A DNA stretch of 37,629 nt, taken from contig JAJZEE010000029.1 in assembly GCA_021805735.1 (NCBI GenBank), forward strand, positions 1-37,629, read 5' to 3'. This document shows positions 13,214 through 23,447 of the stretch, piece after piece (the stretch's first letter is position 1; every line of letters starts with the position of its first letter). The position numbers and the translations under genes were made by a program. This DNA is from Bacillota bacterium (GTDB taxonomy: Bacteria; Bacillota; Bacilli; Alicyclobacillales; SLC66). The notes under the pieces were generated by a model that was given only the letters and a program-made list of their open reading frames with translations, made no database searches and was not told the origin of the DNA.

Positions 13214-13271
13214 TTGACACCCAATCAGGATCGTGGTACATATAATATAGTAATCGTTCTCAAGAAAACGA
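13214..13271 (+). promoter_or_regulatory. Promoter and palindromic operator of the sugar operon
   Basis: TTGACA at 13214-13219 is followed by TACATA 17 bases on (13237-13242) and by TATAAT at 13241-13246, so the -10 is probably in this overlap. Immediately downstream, at 13254-13271, lies the near-palindrome TCGTTCTCAAGAAAACGA, with 14 of 18 positions symmetric. Its place just after the -10 suits a repressor. It is a good candidate site for the LacI/DeoR hybrid encoded in the operon. Confidence 0.55.
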
Positions 13272-13416
13272 ATTCACGGAAGGGAGGGCCCGAGGTCTGT
13301 GTGATCACCTCGATTGAAGTGCTTGAGAAGCGTTGTTCAGCCTGGTGTGATCTAAACTTCTACAGGTTGCGAACAGGGATAATTGCCAAAAATGCAAGAT
13401 TGATTCTTCGAGGTTC

Positions 13417-13430
13417 AGCAAACGTTTTCT
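13417..13430 (+). promoter_or_regulatory. Possible catabolite-response (CcpA) site
   Basis: AGCAAACGTTTTCT matches the Firmicute cre consensus TGWAANCGNTNWCA with three mismatches and has a central AAACGTTT palindrome. It lies in the leader of the sugar operon about 65 bases before the first gene. This is a weak call. The rest of 13272-13495 shows no gene. Confidence 0.3.
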
Positions 13431-13495
13431 CCAGTAGTTGTTGTCTCTTGTAAGCGATAACACAGGTCAAGAGGATGTTTAAGGGGGAACATAGA

Positions 13496-14701
13496 ATGAA
13501 AAAAAAGCTGGTAATGTCGGCGCTGCTTAGTGCCGCAGTCGTTCTGGGCAGTGCCGGGATGACCTTTGCGAGTACTTCCGCGAATCCGCCACTTACACAG
13601 ATATCAAAGGCGCTAATTAAGCAAGAATTGGCAGGAAAAATCCCCGCCTTTGTTGCACAGGAAATGAGCAATTCTGGTAAACTCGGAATGGGCGAACCAG
13701 TTCCTGGATTTCCGAAGGGAGTTCCGCCGGTTTCTTCATACTACTTCCACTTTTCTTCTAGCCAGATAGCAAAACTCAAAGCAGGCCACTTCACGGCGGG
13801 GATTGTCATGCACACCATGAGCGCCGCCTGGCCGCGTTTGCAGATTGCCGGCATTACCAATACATTGAATAAATTTGGCATAAAGGTCATTGCCGTGACT
13901 GATGCAAACTTTGATCCGGCCACGCAGATCAACGACCTCGAGACAATGATCGCGCGACACCCGTCAGTGATCTTCTCCATCCCGGTGGACGCTCCGACCG
14001 AAGTGAATGCCTATAAGAAGGTAGCTGCGGCCGGCATTAAATTGGTTTTTATGGATAACGTGCCACCCAACATGACCCCTGGCAAGGATTACGTTAATGT
14101 CGTAGCGTCCAACAATGGCGGCAATACTGTGTTCGCTGTCAACCAGCTTGTTAACCAGGTCGGCCCCAAGGCGCAAGTAGGTGTCATGACTCTCGGCACA
14201 TACTACTGGTCGGTTTTGGTTCGTTTTCAAGCAGCCATGGCCAAGCTAAAGCATTATCCTCATATGAACGTAGTAACAGGAACCTTTACTAATCCGGGAC
14301 AGCAGGCTTACAACATTGCTCTTGATATGATGCAGTCGCACCCGAACATGAAGGGCATGTGGCTGGCCTGGAATACCCCTGCGGAAGGCGCGGTGGCGGC
14401 GGAGAAAGCATTGGGCAGGCATCTCGTCATTACCACCAATGATCTCGGGCCCATTTCGTCTCTGGACATCGCCAATGGATCAATCACGGCCATCGGAGCA
14501 CAGAGACCCTACGATCAGGGCGTCGCTGAAGCGAACTCAGCAGCCTACTCTTTGCTGGGGCTGAAGGTGCCATTTTACATTGAGGTGCCAACGCTGCCTG
14601 TTACAAGGGCAGATCTGATCCCCGCCTACAAAGCAGTCATGCACACAGCGGTACCACAAGACGTGATCAAAACCCTCGAAAGCTATGCTACCGGAAAGTA
14701 G
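13496..14701 (+). CDS. Sugar ABC transporter substrate-binding protein (ribose/RbsB type)
   Basis: This 401-residue protein is a periplasmic-binding-protein type I sugar binder (Peripla_BP_4-like), with blocks such as TNTLNKFGIKVIAVTDANFDP, SIPVDAP, AGIKLVFMDN and ALGRHLVITTNDLG. An N-terminal Sec signal spans residues 1 to about 26 (KKKLVMSALLSAAVVLGSAGMTFAS). It has no cysteine lipobox, so it is not a standard lipoprotein, which is unusual for a Gram-positive importer. The ATG at 13496 follows GGGGGAA. It heads the operon with its ATPase and permease and should deliver a small sugar; the downstream enzymes suggest a four-carbon one. Confidence 0.88.
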   Translation: MKKKLVMSALLSAAVVLGSAGMTFASTSANPPLTQISKALIKQELAGKIPAFVAQEMSNSGKLGMGEPVPGFPKGVPPVSSYYFHFSSSQIAKLKAGHFTAGIVMHTMSAAWPRLQIAGITNTLNKFGIKVIAVTDANFDPATQINDLETMIARHPSVIFSIPVDAPTEVNAYKKVAAAGIKLVFMDNVPPNMTPGKDYVNVVASNNGGNTVFAVNQLVNQVGPKAQVGVMTLGTYYWSVLVRFQAAMAKLKHYPHMNVVTGTFTNPGQQAYNIALDMMQSHPNMKGMWLAWNTPAEGAVAAEKALGRHLVITTNDLGPISSLDIANGSITAIGAQRPYDQGVAEANSAAYSLLGLKVPFYIEVPTLPVTRADLIPAYKAVMHTAVPQDVIKTLESYATGK

Positions 14702-14817: not shown

Positions 14818-16338
14818 TTGGATCGGAATGTTCTTTTGGAGATGCGCGGAATAACCAAAAAATTTGGCGAGTCAAACGTTTTAAATGGAGTTGATTTCGC
14901 TCTTCTTAGTGGTGAGGTACACGCTCTTTTGGGAGAAAATGGCGCAGGAAAATCAACGTTGATGAAAATATTGTCTGGAGTGTACTCGCTGGACGCCGGT
15001 GAGGTGAGAGTTAACGATGTGCCCCGTAAAAGGTTTTCCCCTGCGGAGGCGATGCAGGAGGGAATCTCGATCGTTTACCAGGACCTTAGTCTTGTGCCGG
15101 AACTGACGGTGGCAGATAACTTGTTTCTCGGCATTGAGCCTCGCAGTTGGGGAATGTTGCGAAAAGAGCGCATCCATCGTGCTGCCCAGGGGATGATCAC
15201 TGAATACGGATTTCCTTTGAAACCGCAAATGAAGGTGGGCGACCTGAGTTATGCGCAGCAACAGATGGTGGAGATTTTAAAAGCTCTGTCAAAGAAAGCA
15301 CAGATATTGGTGCTTGATGAACCTACGGCGTCGTTGACTGTAGAAGAGGAAGAAACGCTCTTTTCGATCATCAATGATCTTAGAGCTCACGGTAAAGGCA
15401 TCATCTATATAAGTCATCGTATGGATGAGGTCCTTCGTGTAGCCGATCGGATAACTGTGCTACGGGATGGCATCAATCAGGGAACGATCGAGAAAGATCG
15501 GGCGACTTTGGATTTGCTCATTCAACTGATTACAGGAACCGAGACAACTTCGGGTTCACGCATCGCAAAGCATCATAGATCGACTTCCGGGATTCCTGCT
15601 TTGGAGGTTCGCGAGCTATCCACGTCAGGCAAGTTGCGCCAGGCAACATTCACCATTTATGAAGGAGAGATTTTGGGTGTTGCAGGGCTTGTAGGAAGTG
15701 GCCGAACCACGTTGGCTCGCGCATTGTTTGGTCTTGAAAGGATTATTGGCGGCCATATTCGATTTAAAGGCGAGATTTATAAACCTCAATCACCTGCTCA
15801 GGCAATCGATGCAGGAGTTGCCCTTATTCCCGAACAGAGGCGAGAACAAGGATTGTTTGGGGAATTGTCCATCGAAAACAACATTACCATGACAGTGTTG
15901 GATCGATTTTCGTATTTAGGCAATCTAAAGGGTCTGGCGTTCGTCAATAAACGAAACATGCTGCGCTATTCCGAGGAGAAAGTAGCGGATCTAAAGATTG
16001 CTTGCCGGAATGTGTTTCAAAAGGCGGGGGAATTGAGTGGAGGCACCCAGCAGAAAGTGATTCTCAGCCGATGGTTGAGTAAGGATCCCAAGTTGCTGAT
16101 CATGGATGATCCGACTGCAGGGGTAGATATAACCACAAAACAAGAGATCTGGACCATAATGGACAATATTGCGCAGAAGGGTACTTCAATCTTGTTCATT
16201 TCGTCAGACCTGAAAGAACTCGTTCAAGTATCTCATCGAATCGTAGTGATGGCGGATGGCGCGATTATTAGAGAGATTGATACTCAAATCGACGAGATCT
16301 CCGTACGGCGGGCGATGCAACATGCTATGGTCCAGTGA
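14818..16338 (+). CDS. Sugar ABC transporter ATP-binding protein, two-domain (RbsA type)
   Basis: This 506-residue cytoplasmic subunit has two ATPase domains. Domain 1 has Walker A LLGENGAGKS (about residues 39-48), signature LSYAQQQMVEI and Walker B ILVLDEPTA. Domain 2 has the degenerate Walker A typical of RbsA (GLVGSGRTT, about 292-300), signature LSGGTQQKV and the Walker B-like LLIMDDPTAG. This is the carbohydrate-uptake CUT2 arrangement. The TTG at 14818 is the start I can support, with GAGGGGGAG some ten bases upstream; homology begins near residue 7. It works with the permease downstream and the binding protein upstream. Confidence 0.93.
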   Translation: MDRNVLLEMRGITKKFGESNVLNGVDFALLSGEVHALLGENGAGKSTLMKILSGVYSLDAGEVRVNDVPRKRFSPAEAMQEGISIVYQDLSLVPELTVADNLFLGIEPRSWGMLRKERIHRAAQGMITEYGFPLKPQMKVGDLSYAQQQMVEILKALSKKAQILVLDEPTASLTVEEEETLFSIINDLRAHGKGIIYISHRMDEVLRVADRITVLRDGINQGTIEKDRATLDLLIQLITGTETTSGSRIAKHHRSTSGIPALEVRELSTSGKLRQATFTIYEGEILGVAGLVGSGRTTLARALFGLERIIGGHIRFKGEIYKPQSPAQAIDAGVALIPEQRREQGLFGELSIENNITMTVLDRFSYLGNLKGLAFVNKRNMLRYSEEKVADLKIACRNVFQKAGELSGGTQQKVILSRWLSKDPKLLIMDDPTAGVDITTKQEIWTIMDNIAQKGTSILFISSDLKELVQVSHRIVVMADGAIIREIDTQIDEISVRRAMQHAMVQ

Positions 16339-16383: not shown

Positions 16384-17379
16384 GTGTTAAGAAGACTATC
16401 GCCAATACCAGATGTAGACTCGAATCGTAAGCAACGACGGATCAGTGTCGGCTCTTTGGGTTCTCAGGGACTAATCTATGCTATATTTGTGGTTATTATT
16501 GGGTTTTTTATGATTTTTGCCCCCAACTTTGCCACTGCAACCACATTTGCAGATATAGGGCGTGAAACGGCAGTTACGACCATTGTGGCAGTCGGGATGA
16601 CCTTGGTCATCATCACCGCAGAGATTGACTTATCCATTGGATCAACGGTCAGTTTTACAGGCTTGATGGCAGCGATTCTTATGCAAAGCCATGTCGGTTG
16701 GCTGCCGGCCTCTCTGGCGTCACTTGCCATTGGAGCTCTGATTGGCGCCTTGAATGGATTTGTAACTACTTACGTCGGCGTACCGTCGTTTCTCGTAACA
16801 CTCGGCACTATGGAAATTTTCGGCGGGTTAGCACAAATCATCACTGGTTCCATGCCTGTGCCCGTTGACAGTGTATCGTTTGGCAATATTTTTGGTGACA
16901 ACGCTCTGTTGGGAATTCCTATTCCCGTGTGGTGGACACTGATTATTGTGGTCTTAGGTTTCGTATTGCTTCATCGCAGCGTGTTCGGGCGTTGGATCTA
17001 CGCGACAGGCGGGAACAAGACCGCAGCGAGGTTTTCCGGAATCCAGGTGAATCGGATCAAGATGTATTGCTTTATTCTACTTGGGATATTTGGCGCAGTC
17101 GGTGGGCTGATCCTCGATGGGAGATTCGGGGCCGGTGATCCCAGCGTTGGGAATGGAATGGAACTCGACGCAATTGCTGCGACAATATTGGGCGGCACAA
17201 ATCTCTTCGGAGGTCGGGGAACCATCGTCGGCACAATCATCGGTTCCATATTTATCGGGAGTGTCAGTGTCGGTTTGATTATGTTGGGTGCTGGCGCCGA
17301 GTTGCAGACAGTAGTCAAAGGCGCCATTATCATCGGCGCAGTGGCCTTAAATAAGATTTCCGACAAACGACGAGTGTGA
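16384..17379 (+). CDS. Sugar ABC transporter permease (RbsC type)
   Basis: This 331-residue integral membrane protein has about eight to ten helices. Family motifs include MTLVIITAEIDLSIGS (about residues 76-91), VTTYVGVPSFLVTLGTM, the ATPase-contact loop ATGGNKTAARFSGI (about 207-220) and GGTNLFGGRGTI. It forms the channel of the CUT2 sugar importer. GTG at 16384 is the start, with GGGAGGTG six bases before it. Only one permease gene is present, so it should act as a homodimer, as RbsC does. Confidence 0.92.
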   Translation: MLRRLSPIPDVDSNRKQRRISVGSLGSQGLIYAIFVVIIGFFMIFAPNFATATTFADIGRETAVTTIVAVGMTLVIITAEIDLSIGSTVSFTGLMAAILMQSHVGWLPASLASLAIGALIGALNGFVTTYVGVPSFLVTLGTMEIFGGLAQIITGSMPVPVDSVSFGNIFGDNALLGIPIPVWWTLIIVVLGFVLLHRSVFGRWIYATGGNKTAARFSGIQVNRIKMYCFILLGIFGAVGGLILDGRFGAGDPSVGNGMELDAIAATILGGTNLFGGRGTIVGTIIGSIFIGSVSVGLIMLGAGAELQTVVKGAIIIGAVALNKISDKRRV

Positions 17380-17419: not shown

Positions 17420-18850
17420 TTGAAGCAATACGATCTTTTCATTAATGGAGAGTTTGTACAGTCCAGCGCCGGGGTAATTCGGGAGGTAAGAAATCCTGCG
17501 ACTGAGGAGGTGGTTTCGCTAGTTCAGGAGGCTACCATAGATGATACACGACGGGCTATTCAAGCTGCAGCGGATGCACAATCTTCCTGGGCTGGTTTGC
17601 CCGCGATTCAGCGAGCCAATTATCTTACCCAAATCGCCGCGCGAATTCGGGACAATATGGATTATCTGGCGCAAGTCATTTCGGAGGAGCAGGGCAAGAT
17701 CCTCTCCATGGCGCTCGGGGAGGTGTCCTCCACGGCGGATTACTTAGAGTATATGGCAGGATGGGCGAGACGCATCGAGGGGGAGATCATTCCGAGCGAC
17801 CGGCCCAATGAGAATATCTTTCTGTTCCGGAAACCCATAGGCGTAGTTGCGGGCATTCTCCCGTGGAACTTCCCATTCTTTCTGATAGCCCGAAAAATGG
17901 CGCCGGCGCTGATTACGGGAAATACGATCGTCATTAAACCTTCTGAAGAGACGCCCAATAACGCATTTGAGTTTGCAAAGATCGTCGCGGAGTGTAACCT
18001 TCCAAAAGGCGTGTTTAATGTTGTTTCTGGGAATGGCGCCACTGTCGGGGCAGAACTAGCCTCAAATCCTCAAATAGGACTGATTACGTTTACCGGTAGT
18101 GTTGAGACTGGAACAAGTATCATGAAGGCAGCCGCCGACAATATTACGAAGGTGTCGTTAGAATTGGGAGGAAAGGCGCCGGCAATTGTTATGGACGATG
18201 CGGACATTGATCTCGCGGTCAGATGCATCCGCCTGTCGCGCATCGGGAACGCGGGCCAGGTTTGTAATTGCGCTGAGCGGATCTACGTTCATGAGGCAGT
18301 CTTATCCGAGTTTACTGATAAAATGGTAGAAGCTATGACAAACACGACCTACGGAGATCCGTTATCTGGGGAGGTAGACATGGGCCCCCTGATTAACCGG
18401 GAACAATTATCGAAAGTCGAGACAATTGTAGAACGCGCCGTGCAGGAAGGCGCTACAGTGGCCATTGGCGGGAAACGTGCGCCAACGCAGAAAGGCCACT
18501 ATTTCGAGCCCACAGTCCTACTTAACTGTAAGCAGGAGATGGAGATTACCCATAAGGAGATCTTTGGTCCTGTCTTGCCTATCATACCGTTTCGACACTT
18601 GGAAGAAGCCATATCCATGGCCAATGACTCGTCATATGGACTAACGTCGTCCATTTACACGAAGAGCCTTGAAGTCATGATGAGGGCAGCGAACGAGCTG
18701 AAATTTGGAGAGACGTATGTTAACAGGGAGAACAACGAAGCAATTCAAGCGTTTCACTCAGGATGGCGCAAATCAGGGCTCGGCGGCGACGACGGCAAAC
18801 ATGGTCTCGAGGAATTCCTGCAGTGGCGCGTCGTCTATGTTCAATATTAG
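17420..18850 (+). CDS. aldA: NAD-dependent aldehyde dehydrogenase, AldA-like
   Basis: This 476-residue enzyme closely follows E. coli AldA (lactaldehyde/glycolaldehyde dehydrogenase, 479 residues) across its length. Shared stretches include GILPWNFPFFLIARKMAPAL, ITKVSLELGGKAPAIVMDD and SGQVCNCAER-like NAGQVCNCAER, with HSGWRKSGLGG near the end. The catalytic Cys lies near residue 278 and the general-base Glu near 251 (ELGGK). It oxidises a short hydroxyaldehyde to the acid with NAD. TTG at 17420 is the start, after GGGGGG. Between the importer and the DUF1537 kinase, its likely job is to turn an imported aldotetrose into a tetronate; lactaldehyde or glycolaldehyde remain possible. Confidence 0.88.
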   Translation: MKQYDLFINGEFVQSSAGVIREVRNPATEEVVSLVQEATIDDTRRAIQAAADAQSSWAGLPAIQRANYLTQIAARIRDNMDYLAQVISEEQGKILSMALGEVSSTADYLEYMAGWARRIEGEIIPSDRPNENIFLFRKPIGVVAGILPWNFPFFLIARKMAPALITGNTIVIKPSEETPNNAFEFAKIVAECNLPKGVFNVVSGNGATVGAELASNPQIGLITFTGSVETGTSIMKAAADNITKVSLELGGKAPAIVMDDADIDLAVRCIRLSRIGNAGQVCNCAERIYVHEAVLSEFTDKMVEAMTNTTYGDPLSGEVDMGPLINREQLSKVETIVERAVQEGATVAIGGKRAPTQKGHYFEPTVLLNCKQEMEITHKEIFGPVLPIIPFRHLEEAISMANDSSYGLTSSIYTKSLEVMMRAANELKFGETYVNRENNEAIQAFHSGWRKSGLGGDDGKHGLEEFLQWRVVYVQY

Positions 18851-18872: not shown

Positions 18873-18892
18873 GACAACTGGAGGTGAAGTCG

Positions 18893-19660
18893 GTGGTAAC
18901 GCTAAAGGATGTCGCAAAAGCTGCGGGCACTTCACCAGCAACGGTTTCGAGGGTTCTAAACGGCGTCGGTACAGTGGATGAAGAAATGGCCAGGCGCGTA
19001 TTGGCTGCCTCGGAGCAGCTTAACTACCAGCCGAATCAGGCCGGTAGAAGCTTGCGCACGGGTATGGATTCCGATTATGGGCCCGAGTTCGAACTGCGTT
19101 TACAGCATAACCTGGAGACAAAGCGGATTATTGCAAAACGGGCGGCCGCAGAGATTCAAGCCACTGATATCGTTATTCTGGACTCAGGATCGACTGTGGC
19201 GCAACTCGTTCCGTATTTACCACAAGGTGCGCTGATGTACACGAATTCGCTTGCGCTTCTCCAACCGATGGCCCGGCGTGGACTTAGTATACACTTGGCG
19301 CCGGGACTGTACGTTCCAGAGATGGCAGCCGTTTTCGGCACTGAAACCGAGGAATACTTTCAGAAATACAAGCCTTCCAAGTATATTTTTTCTTCTGCCC
19401 GTGTAGATGTAAGAACTGGACTCTACAACGTGAGTCCATTTACGCTCGGGGTGAAGAAAGTTGTATTGGGCAACGCGACGGAATCCATTCTTTTGGTGGA
19501 CCACGAAAAATTTTGCGATGCTGGGCTGCCGGGTTACGCACACTTGTCTTCCATTGATATGCTCATCACAGACTATGTGCCCGCTCAGTTTCGCGAGGCG
19601 GTCATGCAAACAGGTGTGACCCTAATTGAACTTGGCACGTCAGAAATGGGCGTTGGCTAA
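18893..19660 (+). CDS. Hybrid regulator: LacI-type HTH head joined to DeoR-type sensor domain
   Basis: The 255-residue protein starts with a textbook LacI-family DNA-binding head at residues 2 to about 57 (TLKDVAKAAGTSPATVSRVLNG, then the hinge-like region LNYQPNQAGRSLRTG). No LacI sugar-binding domain follows. The rest, from about 70 to 250, is a DeoR-family C-terminal domain: ETKRIIAKRAAAEI, VILDSGSTVAQLVPYL, MYTNSLALL, a glycine-rich middle, and the ending SILLVDHEKFCDAG with SIDMLITDY. DeoR domains bind phosphorylated sugars, so a tetronate phosphate is a reasonable inducer. GTG at 18893 is preferred because GGAGGTGA precedes it by seven bases; GTG at 18884 overlaps that site. The gene sits two bases before the kinase start. 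The reading frame is continuous, so this is not an assembly join I can see. Confidence 0.88.
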   Translation: MVTLKDVAKAAGTSPATVSRVLNGVGTVDEEMARRVLAASEQLNYQPNQAGRSLRTGMDSDYGPEFELRLQHNLETKRIIAKRAAAEIQATDIVILDSGSTVAQLVPYLPQGALMYTNSLALLQPMARRGLSIHLAPGLYVPEMAAVFGTETEEYFQKYKPSKYIFSSARVDVRTGLYNVSPFTLGVKKVVLGNATESILLVDHEKFCDAGLPGYAHLSSIDMLITDYVPAQFREAVMQTGVTLIELGTSEMGVG

Positions 19661-19662
19661 TT

Positions 19663-20979
19663 ATGACTATCGAGAAAATTTTCGTGATTGCCGATGATCT
19701 GACAGGTGCCTCCGACGCAGCCTTTCAATTTCATGCCGATTCTCGAAGGGTGAGAGTTTGCTTTGCAGTTGATCACCCTTGGGACTTTACATTAGGTTCA
19801 GATATAGTCCAGGCGTTTGATAGCGAAACACGCAACGCGGCGTCTGGCGCCGCTGCGAAGATTATGAGATTAGCATGCGATTTGTTGTATACACAAGTGG
19901 GTAGTGGCTGTCGTGTTTACAAGAAAGTAGATTCCACCCTGCGTGGTCCGGTAGGCATTGAAATTCAGACGGCATTGGCGGCGTTGGGGAAACGATGGGC
20001 CATATTGGCTCCATCCTTTCCTGAAACAGGCCGCACTGTACTCAATGGCTGTGTACTAATAAAAGGTGTTCCGATCAGTCAAACGGTGTTCAGGAGGGAT
20101 CCACTGGCCCCCGTCGCCGCAGATCGAATAGCGGAGATTATACGACAGACGTCTGACTTGCCCGTGTATGAAGTGGGGTTGTCCACCCTCAGGAAGGGTG
20201 CAGACGCCGTATGGCAAAGTCTGCTTCGGAACGGGGAAGGAATAGTAGTCATTGACGCTGAGACACAGGCCGATCTAGACTGCGTTGCGGATCTGGTTGC
20301 TTCCCGACCTGATGTGTTACCCTGCGGTTCGGCCGGGTTGGCCCATTCGCTGGCTGGGGCATGGCTCCCCCCTGCGCCCGTCTCTACGAATACTTCTACA
20401 GAAACACGCATTCCAGATACAGGGTCAAAGGGGAGAGTACTAGTGCTCATCGGCAGTGCTCATCCTCAGGCTTATCGCCAATTGAATTACTTGAAGGATG
20501 AACTGCCGATCACACATATGGTGATCGATCGGGATGGCAGAATGGAAGAATACTCGGAAAAATTGCAGGAGTGGGCGTCTTTAAGGGATTGCGATAATGA
20601 CCAGATAATTGCTGTAAGTGTCTCACAGGATGATCGCGAACCGCCATTAAAGCCCTGGCTTATCGAAAACTACTTGGCGGAGATCGCCAGGGAATGGTTT
20701 CGGATCGTGTCGTTGGAGCAAGCCTCTCAAATTGGCATATTCGTGACAGGCGGCGCAACAGCAACAGCAGTTTGCCGGGGCTTGGGGATTCAGGCGCTTT
20801 GGCCCATGGGAGAGCTGGCGCCAGGTGTGACATACACTATGGCGCATGTGAATGGCAGGCAACTGACAGTGATAACTAAAGCCGGAGGTTTTGGAGACGA
20901 GACAGTTCTACTTGAGTCGGCGCGCTTTTTGACTGGCGGAAATACCCATGCAGTAAACGGGAAAGGAAGATTGATGTGA
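19663..20979 (+). CDS. Four-carbon acid sugar kinase, DUF1537 family
   Basis: This 438-residue cytosolic kinase belongs to the family that phosphorylates tetronates at C4 (threonate, erythronate or 2-oxo-tetronate kinases). The N-terminal sugar-binding domain has the diagnostic ADDLTGASDAA (residues 10-20) and the loop YKKVDSTLRGPVG (about 86-98). The ATP-binding half has the LIGSAHPQ loop (about 262-269) and VTGGATATAVCRGLG (about 364-378). Paired directly with a PdxA2-like gene, it fits the D-threonate kinase (DtnK) branch described for DUF1537, in which no separate C2 dehydrogenase is needed. It overlaps pdxA2 by four bases. Exact stereochemistry cannot be read from the sequence. Confidence 0.88.
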   Translation: MTIEKIFVIADDLTGASDAAFQFHADSRRVRVCFAVDHPWDFTLGSDIVQAFDSETRNAASGAAAKIMRLACDLLYTQVGSGCRVYKKVDSTLRGPVGIEIQTALAALGKRWAILAPSFPETGRTVLNGCVLIKGVPISQTVFRRDPLAPVAADRIAEIIRQTSDLPVYEVGLSTLRKGADAVWQSLLRNGEGIVVIDAETQADLDCVADLVASRPDVLPCGSAGLAHSLAGAWLPPAPVSTNTSTETRIPDTGSKGRVLVLIGSAHPQAYRQLNYLKDELPITHMVIDRDGRMEEYSEKLQEWASLRDCDNDQIIAVSVSQDDREPPLKPWLIENYLAEIAREWFRIVSLEQASQIGIFVTGGATATAVCRGLGIQALWPMGELAPGVTYTMAHVNGRQLTVITKAGGFGDETVLLESARFLTGGNTHAVNGKGRLM

Positions 20980-21980
20980 CTGGTCCAGTTGTCGCTGTTA
21001 CGATGGGTGACCCCGCAGGAGTTGGTCCTGAGATATGCGTGTTGGCCATGAGCCATAGCACTGTCTATGATCGCGTCCGCTCTGTGATAGTAGGAGATGT
21101 TCGAAGACTTGAAATGGCCAGATCGATTCTCATCAAAGCGGGACGATTACAGGAACATGTTCCCGTGTTTGTAGCTATCAAAAAAATGGATGAAGCCAAA
21201 TTTGCGCCTGGTACAGTGGATGTCCTTGATCTTCAAAATGTACCGGAGGGATTAGAGTGGGGGCATACGTCTTCAGAGGCTGGTCGGGCATCCTTTGAGT
21301 ATGTTGAGCGGTCTGTCCAATTGGCGGTCGATAGACAGGTTGAGGCAATCTGCACAGCTCCTATCAATAAGGAAGCCTGGAAGCTGGCGAATATAACCTA
21401 CCCTGGCCATACAGAGGCTCTTGCTTTCCTCTCCGGTTCCACTCATTATGCGATGATGCTGGTTAACGGAGCCTTAAGGGTCGTACATGTCACAACGCAT
21501 GTAAGTATGCGTGATGCTGTTTTCCAGGTTACTACGAAACAAGTGTATGACACCATCCAACTCACAGCATCTACCTTACGGCAACTTGGCATGGGCGATC
21601 CGCGCATTGCGGTCGCGGGGCTAAACCCACATGCTGGGGAAGGAGGGCTATTCGGCGAGGAGGATAGACGAGAAATTGCCCCGGCTGTCGAACAGGCGCG
21701 GCAAGCGGGAATCAATGCCACAGGCCCTTGGCCGCCAGATTCAGTGTTTTTCCGGGCCGCCAACGGTGAGTTTGATTGTGTGGTCGCGCAGTACCATGAT
21801 CAAGGGCATATTCCCATTAAGATGCTCGGGTTTGATACAGGAATCAACGTCACAATCGGGTTGCCAATCCTCAGAACCTCAGTCGATCATGGAACGGCAT
21901 TTGACATCGCGGGCAAAGGGGTGGTGCGCGAACACAGCATGATCGAATGTATTAAGGTGGCAGCCGATCTGTCGAACTAG
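20976..21980 (+). CDS. pdxA2: PdxA2-like tetronate 4-phosphate dehydrogenase (decarboxylating)
   Basis: This 334-residue protein is in the PdxA family (4-hydroxythreonine 4-phosphate dehydrogenase fold). It begins VAVTMGDPAGVGPEI and has the metal-ligand histidine motifs YPGHTEAL, LNPHAGEGG and YHDQGHIPIKM in the usual order, plus TVGLPILRTS-like VTIGLPILRTSVDHGTAFDIAG. The PdxA2 branch next to DUF1537 kinases oxidises and decarboxylates D-threonate or D-erythronate 4-phosphate to dihydroxyacetone phosphate with NAD. The start GTG at 20976 overlaps the kinase stop (GTGA), with GAAAGGAAG upstream. No vitamin B6 genes are nearby, so a biosynthetic PdxA role is less likely. Confidence 0.87.
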   Translation: MTGPVVAVTMGDPAGVGPEICVLAMSHSTVYDRVRSVIVGDVRRLEMARSILIKAGRLQEHVPVFVAIKKMDEAKFAPGTVDVLDLQNVPEGLEWGHTSSEAGRASFEYVERSVQLAVDRQVEAICTAPINKEAWKLANITYPGHTEALAFLSGSTHYAMMLVNGALRVVHVTTHVSMRDAVFQVTTKQVYDTIQLTASTLRQLGMGDPRIAVAGLNPHAGEGGLFGEEDRREIAPAVEQARQAGINATGPWPPDSVFFRAANGEFDCVVAQYHDQGHIPIKMLGFDTGINVTIGLPILRTSVDHGTAFDIAGKGVVREHSMIECIKVAADLSN

Positions 21981-22460: not shown

Positions 22461-23447
22461 TTACCCTTCGAAGGATGCCCTATGCGCTGCAATAAATCCA
22501 TTGAGTCTGTTTCGAAGCCGAATCAGCCATTCGGGATCATCGCTCATCTCTTCGATATCTACAGAACGAAGCAAGCTAGCATATGACACAAGATCGTGTA
22601 ATCTTCTCAGCCACGGAAGATGCTGTAAGGCCGCACTATCTAGATCCGTTTCCTGCGTATACCCCTTTATGAATTCGAGCATACGCCGATCGTCAGGAGT
22701 AGCCCCCTCGTCAAATAAATCCCGGAGCGCGAAGGCAATGTCCGCTGCATACCAGTACTGTGCGCAATCATCAAAATCCAGTATACCAACAACGCCGTTG
22801 TCCCAACGAAGGTTATCCAGTTCGAAATCAAAGTGGATTATCCCCATTTGACTCTCGGACAGCGAAAGATTGTCGGCCCAGGACATCACGCGTTCGAGCT
22901 CCGTGACAGCGGCCGCATCCTGAGCGGGAATCGTCTCGCGCGCGAAAAGCAGGTGATCCCTCCAACTCGCGCGGTTGTGATAGTACCGTTTTGGCATCTT
23001 CTTCAGTATCCGGTGAAGACGCCCCAAGGCTTGCCCCCAGACGATAAACTGATCGTTTGGGAACTCCCCGAAATCATACTGTGTACCTGGCAAGCCCTCA
23101 AATACAGCGGCGAAATACACTCCCGCATCAGTCTCGACCGTCTCAATCCACTCCCCTCGTCGCGACAAGACAGGCTGCGCTGTACGTAACGGCTGATCCT
23201 TCAAATAGTGCAGTATGGCCATCTCCGCTTCAAGAGCGGGCAGCGACCTCTCTTTGGAGTCGTTAAAGCGCAGAAAGTATGTTCTTCCTTTCCTGTGGAA
23301 AGTAAATACGAAATTTGCGCTTGCTCTGAAATACTCAACTGATCCTTGGTCAAAACCCCATCTCTCGGCAATTGTTTCCGCGAGCGGACTGTGCCAATTC
23401 GCGTCGACAGTGTCGACGATTTTCCTCATGGTGCTCAGTTTCATCAT
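22461..23447 (-). CDS. APH-fold phosphotransferase (aminoglycoside phosphotransferase/choline kinase superfamily)
   Basis: The 328-residue protein has the protein-kinase-like APH fold. The N-lobe contains FVFTFHRKGRTYFLRF (a nucleotide-loop and lysine-like strand) and EAEMAILHYL. The C-lobe has the catalytic Brenner-type loop IIHFDFELDNLRWD (about residues 208-221) and the magnesium-binding GILDFDDC (about 226-233). Many Bacillales carry such genes for small-molecule kinases or spore-coat CotS-like proteins; the substrate is not evident. ATGs at 23447 and 23444 are adjacent and the ribosome site is weak. A hairpin with a T-run stands about 40 bases upstream on the same strand and may control the gene. 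Antibiotic resistance should not be assumed. Confidence 0.82.
   Translation of the reverse strand: MMKLSTMRKIVDTVDANWHSPLAETIAERWGFDQGSVEYFRASANFVFTFHRKGRTYFLRFNDSKERSLPALEAEMAILHYLKDQPLRTAQPVLSRRGEWIETVETDAGVYFAAVFEGLPGTQYDFGEFPNDQFIVWGQALGRLHRILKKMPKRYYHNRASWRDHLLFARETIPAQDAAAVTELERVMSWADNLSLSESQMGIIHFDFELDNLRWDNGVVGILDFDDCAQYWYAADIAFALRDLFDEGATPDDRRMLEFIKGYTQETDLDSAALQHLPWLRRLHDLVSYASLLRSVDIEEMSDDPEWLIRLRNRLNGFIAAHRASFEG

Follow-up and report, generated by a model that had tools for sequence, protein, structure and literature searches.

LacI proteins insert the leucine of their hinge into the DNA at the central step of the site. Most motifs of the LacI family are reported to be palindromes of even length centred on CG, and for 110 operons sites are described that overlap at about 13 bp from each other, an arrangement said to be hard to reconcile with structures (PMC4052901); it is presented there as a puzzle because dimers at that spacing should not interact (PMC4052901). 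From the DeoR family, VdtR of Brucella is reported to repress a DUF1537 cluster that responds to D-erythronate (PMC10580937), and Escherichia coli YgbI to repress ygbJKLMN (PMC8464067). Chimeric regulators are also described, AraR of Bacillus subtilis carrying a GntR head on a LacI-type sensor (PMC4218819), and one survey places GalR/LacI among the families with promiscuous companion domains, the word "DeoR" being absent from its main text.

The regulator described here joins a LacI-type head to a DeoR-type sensor. With the LacI/GalR family (CcpA, PurR, LacI) it shares the head, a hinge segment with a conserved leucine and predicted CG-centred palindromic sites, for which other members of that family also show overlapping pairs about 13 bp apart, but it lacks the LacI sugar-binding core and carries the DeoR sensor instead. 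The DeoRC sensor is shared with the DeoR/GlpR family (E. coli DeoR, VdtR, YgbI), of which VdtR and YgbI control acid-sugar clusters, whereas the hybrid is without a DeoR-type helix-turn-helix and its predicted operator is of LacI type. Like AraR, it holds head and sensor of two different families in one chain, the pairing being GntR head with LacI-type sensor in AraR and LacI head with DeoR sensor in the hybrid. A first-pass annotation of this DNA had stated that no such member was described, which holds within the open-access full-text literature that was searched, where this pairing of head and sensor did not turn up. Chimeric regulators as such were already known through AraR, and it is the pairing of LacI head and DeoR sensor that appears to be new within that literature.

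The hybrid gene lies in the window, by which we mean the whole stretch of 37,629 nucleotides that was analysed, and comprises the following features:
18893..19660, + strand, hybrid regulator with LacI and DeoRC domains and orthologues, an open frame of 255 aa from GTG 18893 or 258 aa from GTG 18884
18899..19036, + strand, LacI-type helix-turn-helix (PF00356 at residues 6-51 in 258-aa numbering, Pfam E 8.8e-17), with modelled helices in the 255-aa form
19037..19066, + strand, LacI-type hinge segment with the leucine invariant in 16 fusions (alignment A2)
19109..19573, + strand, DeoR C-terminal sensor domain (PF00455, Pfam E 2.3e-28), with a fold match to E. coli DeoR 7L6L

The longest open frame runs on the + strand from GTG 18884 to 19660. 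GTG 18893, the start chosen in the first-pass annotation, is nevertheless the better one, because GGAGG at 18880-18884 ends 8 bases upstream of it and most orthologues begin at the matching MVTIKD. Both PF00356 and PF00455 (the latter over residues 76-230 in 258-aa numbering) score well above their gathering scores, and up to E 0.001 Pfam reported neither a DeoR-type helix-turn-helix nor a LacI sugar-binding domain in the window protein. Both domains were recovered in all 16 aligned fusions, one divergent fusion (33%) included, and the DeoR-type helix-turn-helix was absent among the six Pfam families tallied over these 16. By Pfam and by fold match, the periplasmic-binding-protein-like sugar domain of LacI type is replaced by DeoRC in the fusions. 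The helix-turn-helix is followed by a hinge segment, recognised by sequence, in which R55, L57 and R58 are invariant across the 16 fusions (alignment A2). NCBIfam mostly gives the same split, with partial DeoR-type matches over the C-terminal part and LacI-type matches over about residues 2-62; one DeoR-type model (UlaR) covers 2-245 of the hybrid, and all NCBIfam matches are far below their cut-offs.

An AlphaFold model of the hybrid, built from a three-row alignment, has a mean pLDDT of 72.9, with the head as helices 4-11, 15-23 and 30-42 (255-aa form) and a hinge of low confidence (pLDDT <50 at residues 48-63). Its top Foldseek match is E. coli DeoR 7L6L (E 9.1e-11), with which residues 68-246 align at Z 18.4 and rmsd 2.9 over 173 aligned residues (VIA-align 2), the next entries standing at Z 15.1 and below. 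As the structural comparison covers mainly residues 50-246, the assignment of the head rests on its sequence. The annotated LacI head and hinge are thus borne out by PF00356 and the invariant R55, L57 and R58, the C-terminal part was rightly called DeoRC according to both Pfam and the predicted fold, and Pfam finds the two families joined within a single open frame, as had been claimed.

Full-length orthologues were found in 19 of 59 genomes of the order, namely the genome of the window itself, a second assembly (G012) at 97% identity and 17 others at 55-62%, so that the join is not unique to this assembly. Neither of the two refuting outcomes named in the first-pass annotation, a join confined to this assembly and a C-terminal part other than DeoRC, was therefore borne out. 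The gene for the hybrid regulator is conserved across a group of bacteria from soils and acid sites. Against the G012 copy the window gene gives dN 0.010 and dS 0.118, and it is accordingly under purifying selection. One genome (G023) carries two copies of the regulator gene on two contigs.

In the window seven genes form a tight row, with the regulator gene in fifth place between an aldehyde dehydrogenase and a DUF1537 kinase. The other genes of the row are:
13475..14701, + strand, sugar ABC transporter substrate-binding protein (PF13407), first gene of the row
14818..16338, + strand, sugar ABC transporter ATPase (PF00005)
16384..17379, + strand, sugar ABC transporter permease (PF02653)
17420..18850, + strand, aldehyde dehydrogenase (PF00171; NF007497 at 772.6 bits, cut-off 500)
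19663..20979, + strand, DUF1537-type four-carbon acid sugar kinase (PF07005 + PF17042)
20976..21980, + strand, PdxA-type dehydrogenase, probably PdxA2 (PF04166; TIGR00557 above cut-off)

The best NCBIfam model for the kinase is D-threonate kinase at 212.2 bits, under its cut-off of 450, and the D-threonate 4-phosphate dehydrogenase model likewise scores below its own cut-off on the PdxA-type dehydrogenase; because both enzymes fall below the curated D-threonate cut-offs, D-threonate was left unassigned as the exact substrate. Just beyond the row, at 22461-23447 on the - strand, stands an APH-fold phosphotransferase (PF01636).

This gene context recurs among the orthologues, as computed for 19 loci outside the window's own genome (L153-L170 and L172; L173 was dropped as the same plasmid copy as L167). 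The DUF1537 kinase comes next on the same strand in all 19, its match starting 6-203 bases past the regulator match, and PdxA follows the kinase in 18, an MFS transporter standing there in L164, which has no PdxA match. Orthologues with the same join beside DUF1537 and PdxA genes, for which the first-pass annotation had suggested looking, therefore exist. A KdgT-type permease follows PdxA in L153 (Pfam), in L156, L161 and L170 (by resemblance) and on the Alicyclobacillus dauci plasmid (annotation).

Upstream of these operons lie paired palindromes, and the following elements were predicted in the window:
13214..13246, + strand, predicted promoter, with the -35 box TTGACA at 13214-13219 and the -10 box somewhere in TACATATAAT at 13237-13246
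13250..13275, + strand, predicted tandem operator GTAATCGTTCTC-AA-GAAAACGAATTC, a palindrome pair found as a pattern match
13418..13429, + strand, possibly one more operator, GCAAACGTTTTC, with GAAAACGTTTTC as its counterpart in the 97% relative, from sequence

In the orthologues the pair, of which GAATACGTTTTC-A-GAAAACGTATTC is an example, lies 5' of the regulator gene; in the window and G012 it precedes the gene that opens the row. Tandem palindromes at a spacing of 13 bp were present in 18 of 18 orthologue upstream regions, a count that includes the identical regions of L166 and L167 and close relatives with shared operators; the spacing is 14 bp in the window and G012. Both palindromes are CG-centred in 17 of the 18, the exception being the second palindrome of L165. 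The pair of the window is a weaker one, matching 22 of 24 positions at its 14 bp spacing; no other place in its genome matches at either spacing, 13 or 14 bp, when up to three mismatches are allowed. In dinucleotide shuffles the observed score was reached 0 times in 300 for 19 of 20 regions and once in 300 for L156, a measure of chance and no independent discovery, because the pattern was drawn from those same upstream regions.

When the 13-bp pattern was searched in the 59 genomes, the matches listed included 10 exact ones, all at fusion operons; of the six listed with one mismatch four were at fusion operons (G039, G040, G047, G048) and two were not (G033, where the site is an array before an MFS-like gene, and G053). 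With up to three mismatches, 109 matches were listed for the 59 genomes as against 17 for a reversed-pattern control, and since just 18 of the 109 are at fusion operons, only near-exact tandem sites can be taken as specific. In 17 of 18 orthologue regions (L165 is the exception) the operator is preceded at a distance of 36-42 bp by a TTGACA/TTTACA box, and in the window at 36 bp, so the tandem operator is probably near the likely transcription start. The LacI-style operator recognition predicted in the first-pass annotation gains support from these CG-centred palindromes.

A similar arrangement was observed elsewhere. Tandem AAAACGTTTT-type palindromes 13 bp apart precede a gene that is MFS-like by resemblance in L194, L199, L204, L206 and L208, near base 1500, and the genomes with this array are several of the order, most of them without the fusion. 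The array is perhaps the operator of another LacI-family protein, and because it shares the 13-bp spacing in several genomes, that spacing is not unique to the hybrid.

With the motif and its place computed directly from the DNA, we consider it likely that the protein is a natural chimeric repressor, with LacI-style operators as its targets and a four-carbon sugar-acid intermediate as the signal that it senses; binding of the motif by the hybrid itself, repression, the oligomer and the effector are the parts that we infer. The CG-centred palindromes, which overlap and lie close to where transcription of the operon probably begins, would be bound by the LacI-type head and hinge, and the leucine at the hinge place corresponding to that of LacI proteins is the one invariant in the 16 fusions. 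The hybrid would thereby regulate the operon carrying its own gene, which in the window encodes the transporter, the DUF1537 kinase, the PdxA-type dehydrogenase and the aldehyde dehydrogenase. The DeoR sensor, instead of a LacI core, would hold the chains together and would bind an intermediate of a four-carbon sugar-acid pathway, most likely phosphorylated, in line with the phosphorylated sugar proposed in the first-pass annotation. Since the operator is near the likely transcription start, the bound hybrid would block transcription, and effector binding would release the heads from the DNA and turn the operon on. A four-carbon sugar acid or its phosphate is proposed as the releasing effector by analogy with VdtR and YgbI, ygbK presumably being a DUF1537 gene.

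The strongest rival to this reading is that the tandem palindromes are catabolite-repression (cre) sites bound by CcpA and that the hybrid binds elsewhere or not at all. CcpA belongs to the LacI family, the tandem sites resemble cre sites, and a CcpA-like head in the same genome (L006, named by resemblance only) has the same TVSRV recognition segment as the hybrid. The ACGT-centred sites moreover fit what we take to be the cre consensus, whereas the ATCGAT-centred ones depart from it. A near-identical CcpA-like head is also present in a genome without the fusion (L020, G006), yet all 10 exact sites listed are at fusion operons, and sites of this kind also accompany the divergent fusion, which carries the same SPAT head. 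Among operators whose head has Ser at the residue that we number as LacI position 18, 5 of 6 contain a GTTTGC half-site in their tandem pair, against 0 of 13 where that residue is Ala, counts that are not corrected for kinship; the separate third site of the window carries GCAAAC. On this balance we regard binding by CcpA in place of the hybrid as unlikely.

That the hybrid binds the operator as an activator, not as a repressor, seems less probable still. Activators do exist among DeoR relatives, an L-fucose operon activator being among the partial NCBIfam matches, but in 17 of 18 regions a -35-like box precedes the operator by 36-42 bp, which points to an operator near the transcription start, where a bound protein blocks, and the described DeoR-family proteins of acid-sugar clusters repress. 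An assembly or annotation artefact in which two genes were run together was rejected and has a negligible probability, given the intact frame in G012 at 97% identity, the same join in 19 of 59 genomes (two of the 17 at 55-62% being single-contig), an independently annotated copy on the A. dauci plasmid NZ_CP104065.1 and the purifying selection on the gene. The join of LacI head and DeoR sensor in one frame is confirmed as a real gene.

Beyond the order, no fusion was found among 398 genomes of the phylum (matches with E up to 1e-14), nor in a profile search of 398 genomes of the class among the matches listed, down to about 5e-28, nor in 398 genomes of the class with the divergent fusion as query. 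As no more than six candidates were scored for each genome in the phylum and class searches, these samples may contain a rare or divergent fusion that escaped detection. Three near full-length profile matches outside the order (G482/L189, G520/L190 and L117) were set aside, their heads being plain DeoR-type by eye. Of the 62 loci L038-L099, 36 led to 35 genomes, in which no fusion was seen either. Among the best 25 of 950 matching plasmid records only that of A. dauci was annotated as LacI and no further fusion was seen, and none was apparent among the best 10 of 31 matching phage records, which are mostly unannotated. Viral contigs gave four matches over the head only and one DeoR-type match, which led to L255.

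Within the order, G047 holds the second, divergent fusion (33%; L171 9310-10092, G047:C121), which adjoins an FGGY kinase, an alcohol dehydrogenase, a DeoC/LacD-type aldolase and transporter-like genes. Upstream of it are three single LacI-type sites matching 12 of 12 positions, and 0 of 2000 shuffles reached three. A set of 162 DeoRC domains was thinned to 80, with 12 orthologues kept, for a tree in which these 12 formed one clade (100/100) and the divergent fusion was placed elsewhere on a long branch; the bootstrap had not settled. A single clade for all fusions was not rejected (p-AU 0.231, 38 rows), and the sensor may have been joined to the LacI head once or twice. Alignments A1 and A4, in which the sensor part is misaligned, were left out of these conclusions on the sensor. 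The 22 loci of the nearest plain DeoRs showed no DUF1537 kinase or PdxA match in flanks of about 5 kb each, or as far as the contig reached, and the fusion profile recovered no DeoR at E 1e-3 in the flanks of LacI loci.

The hybrid is a natural domain swap that has been conserved, uniting two large families of regulators whose sensors are unrelated, and its likely operator can be read from the sequence. The overlapping mode of binding may tentatively be assigned to the LacI head and hinge, because a hybrid without the LacI core keeps the predicted 13 bp spacing in 18 of 18 regions outside the genus of the window; the head would then be a portable module that moved with its operator code onto an unrelated sensor. 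If the hybrid works as proposed, a LacI head is active without a LacI core, protein engineers gain a junction tested by evolution, and the puzzle of overlapping operators at 13 bp becomes open to study in the absence of that core. There is also a gap in labelling, since the orthologue on the A. dauci plasmid is annotated simply as "LacI family DNA-binding transcriptional regulator", by which its DeoR sensor is hidden.

Two further observations concern the operons themselves. In G023 the regulator-kinase-PdxA operon occurs in two copies on two contigs (L166 and L167/L173) with identical 415 upstream bases, and transposase genes lie near the plasmid copy (L167/L173). At L153 10042-12399 (G024:C1), the DUF1537 kinase and PdxA are contained in one open frame of 785 aa, possibly a natural kinase-dehydrogenase fusion.
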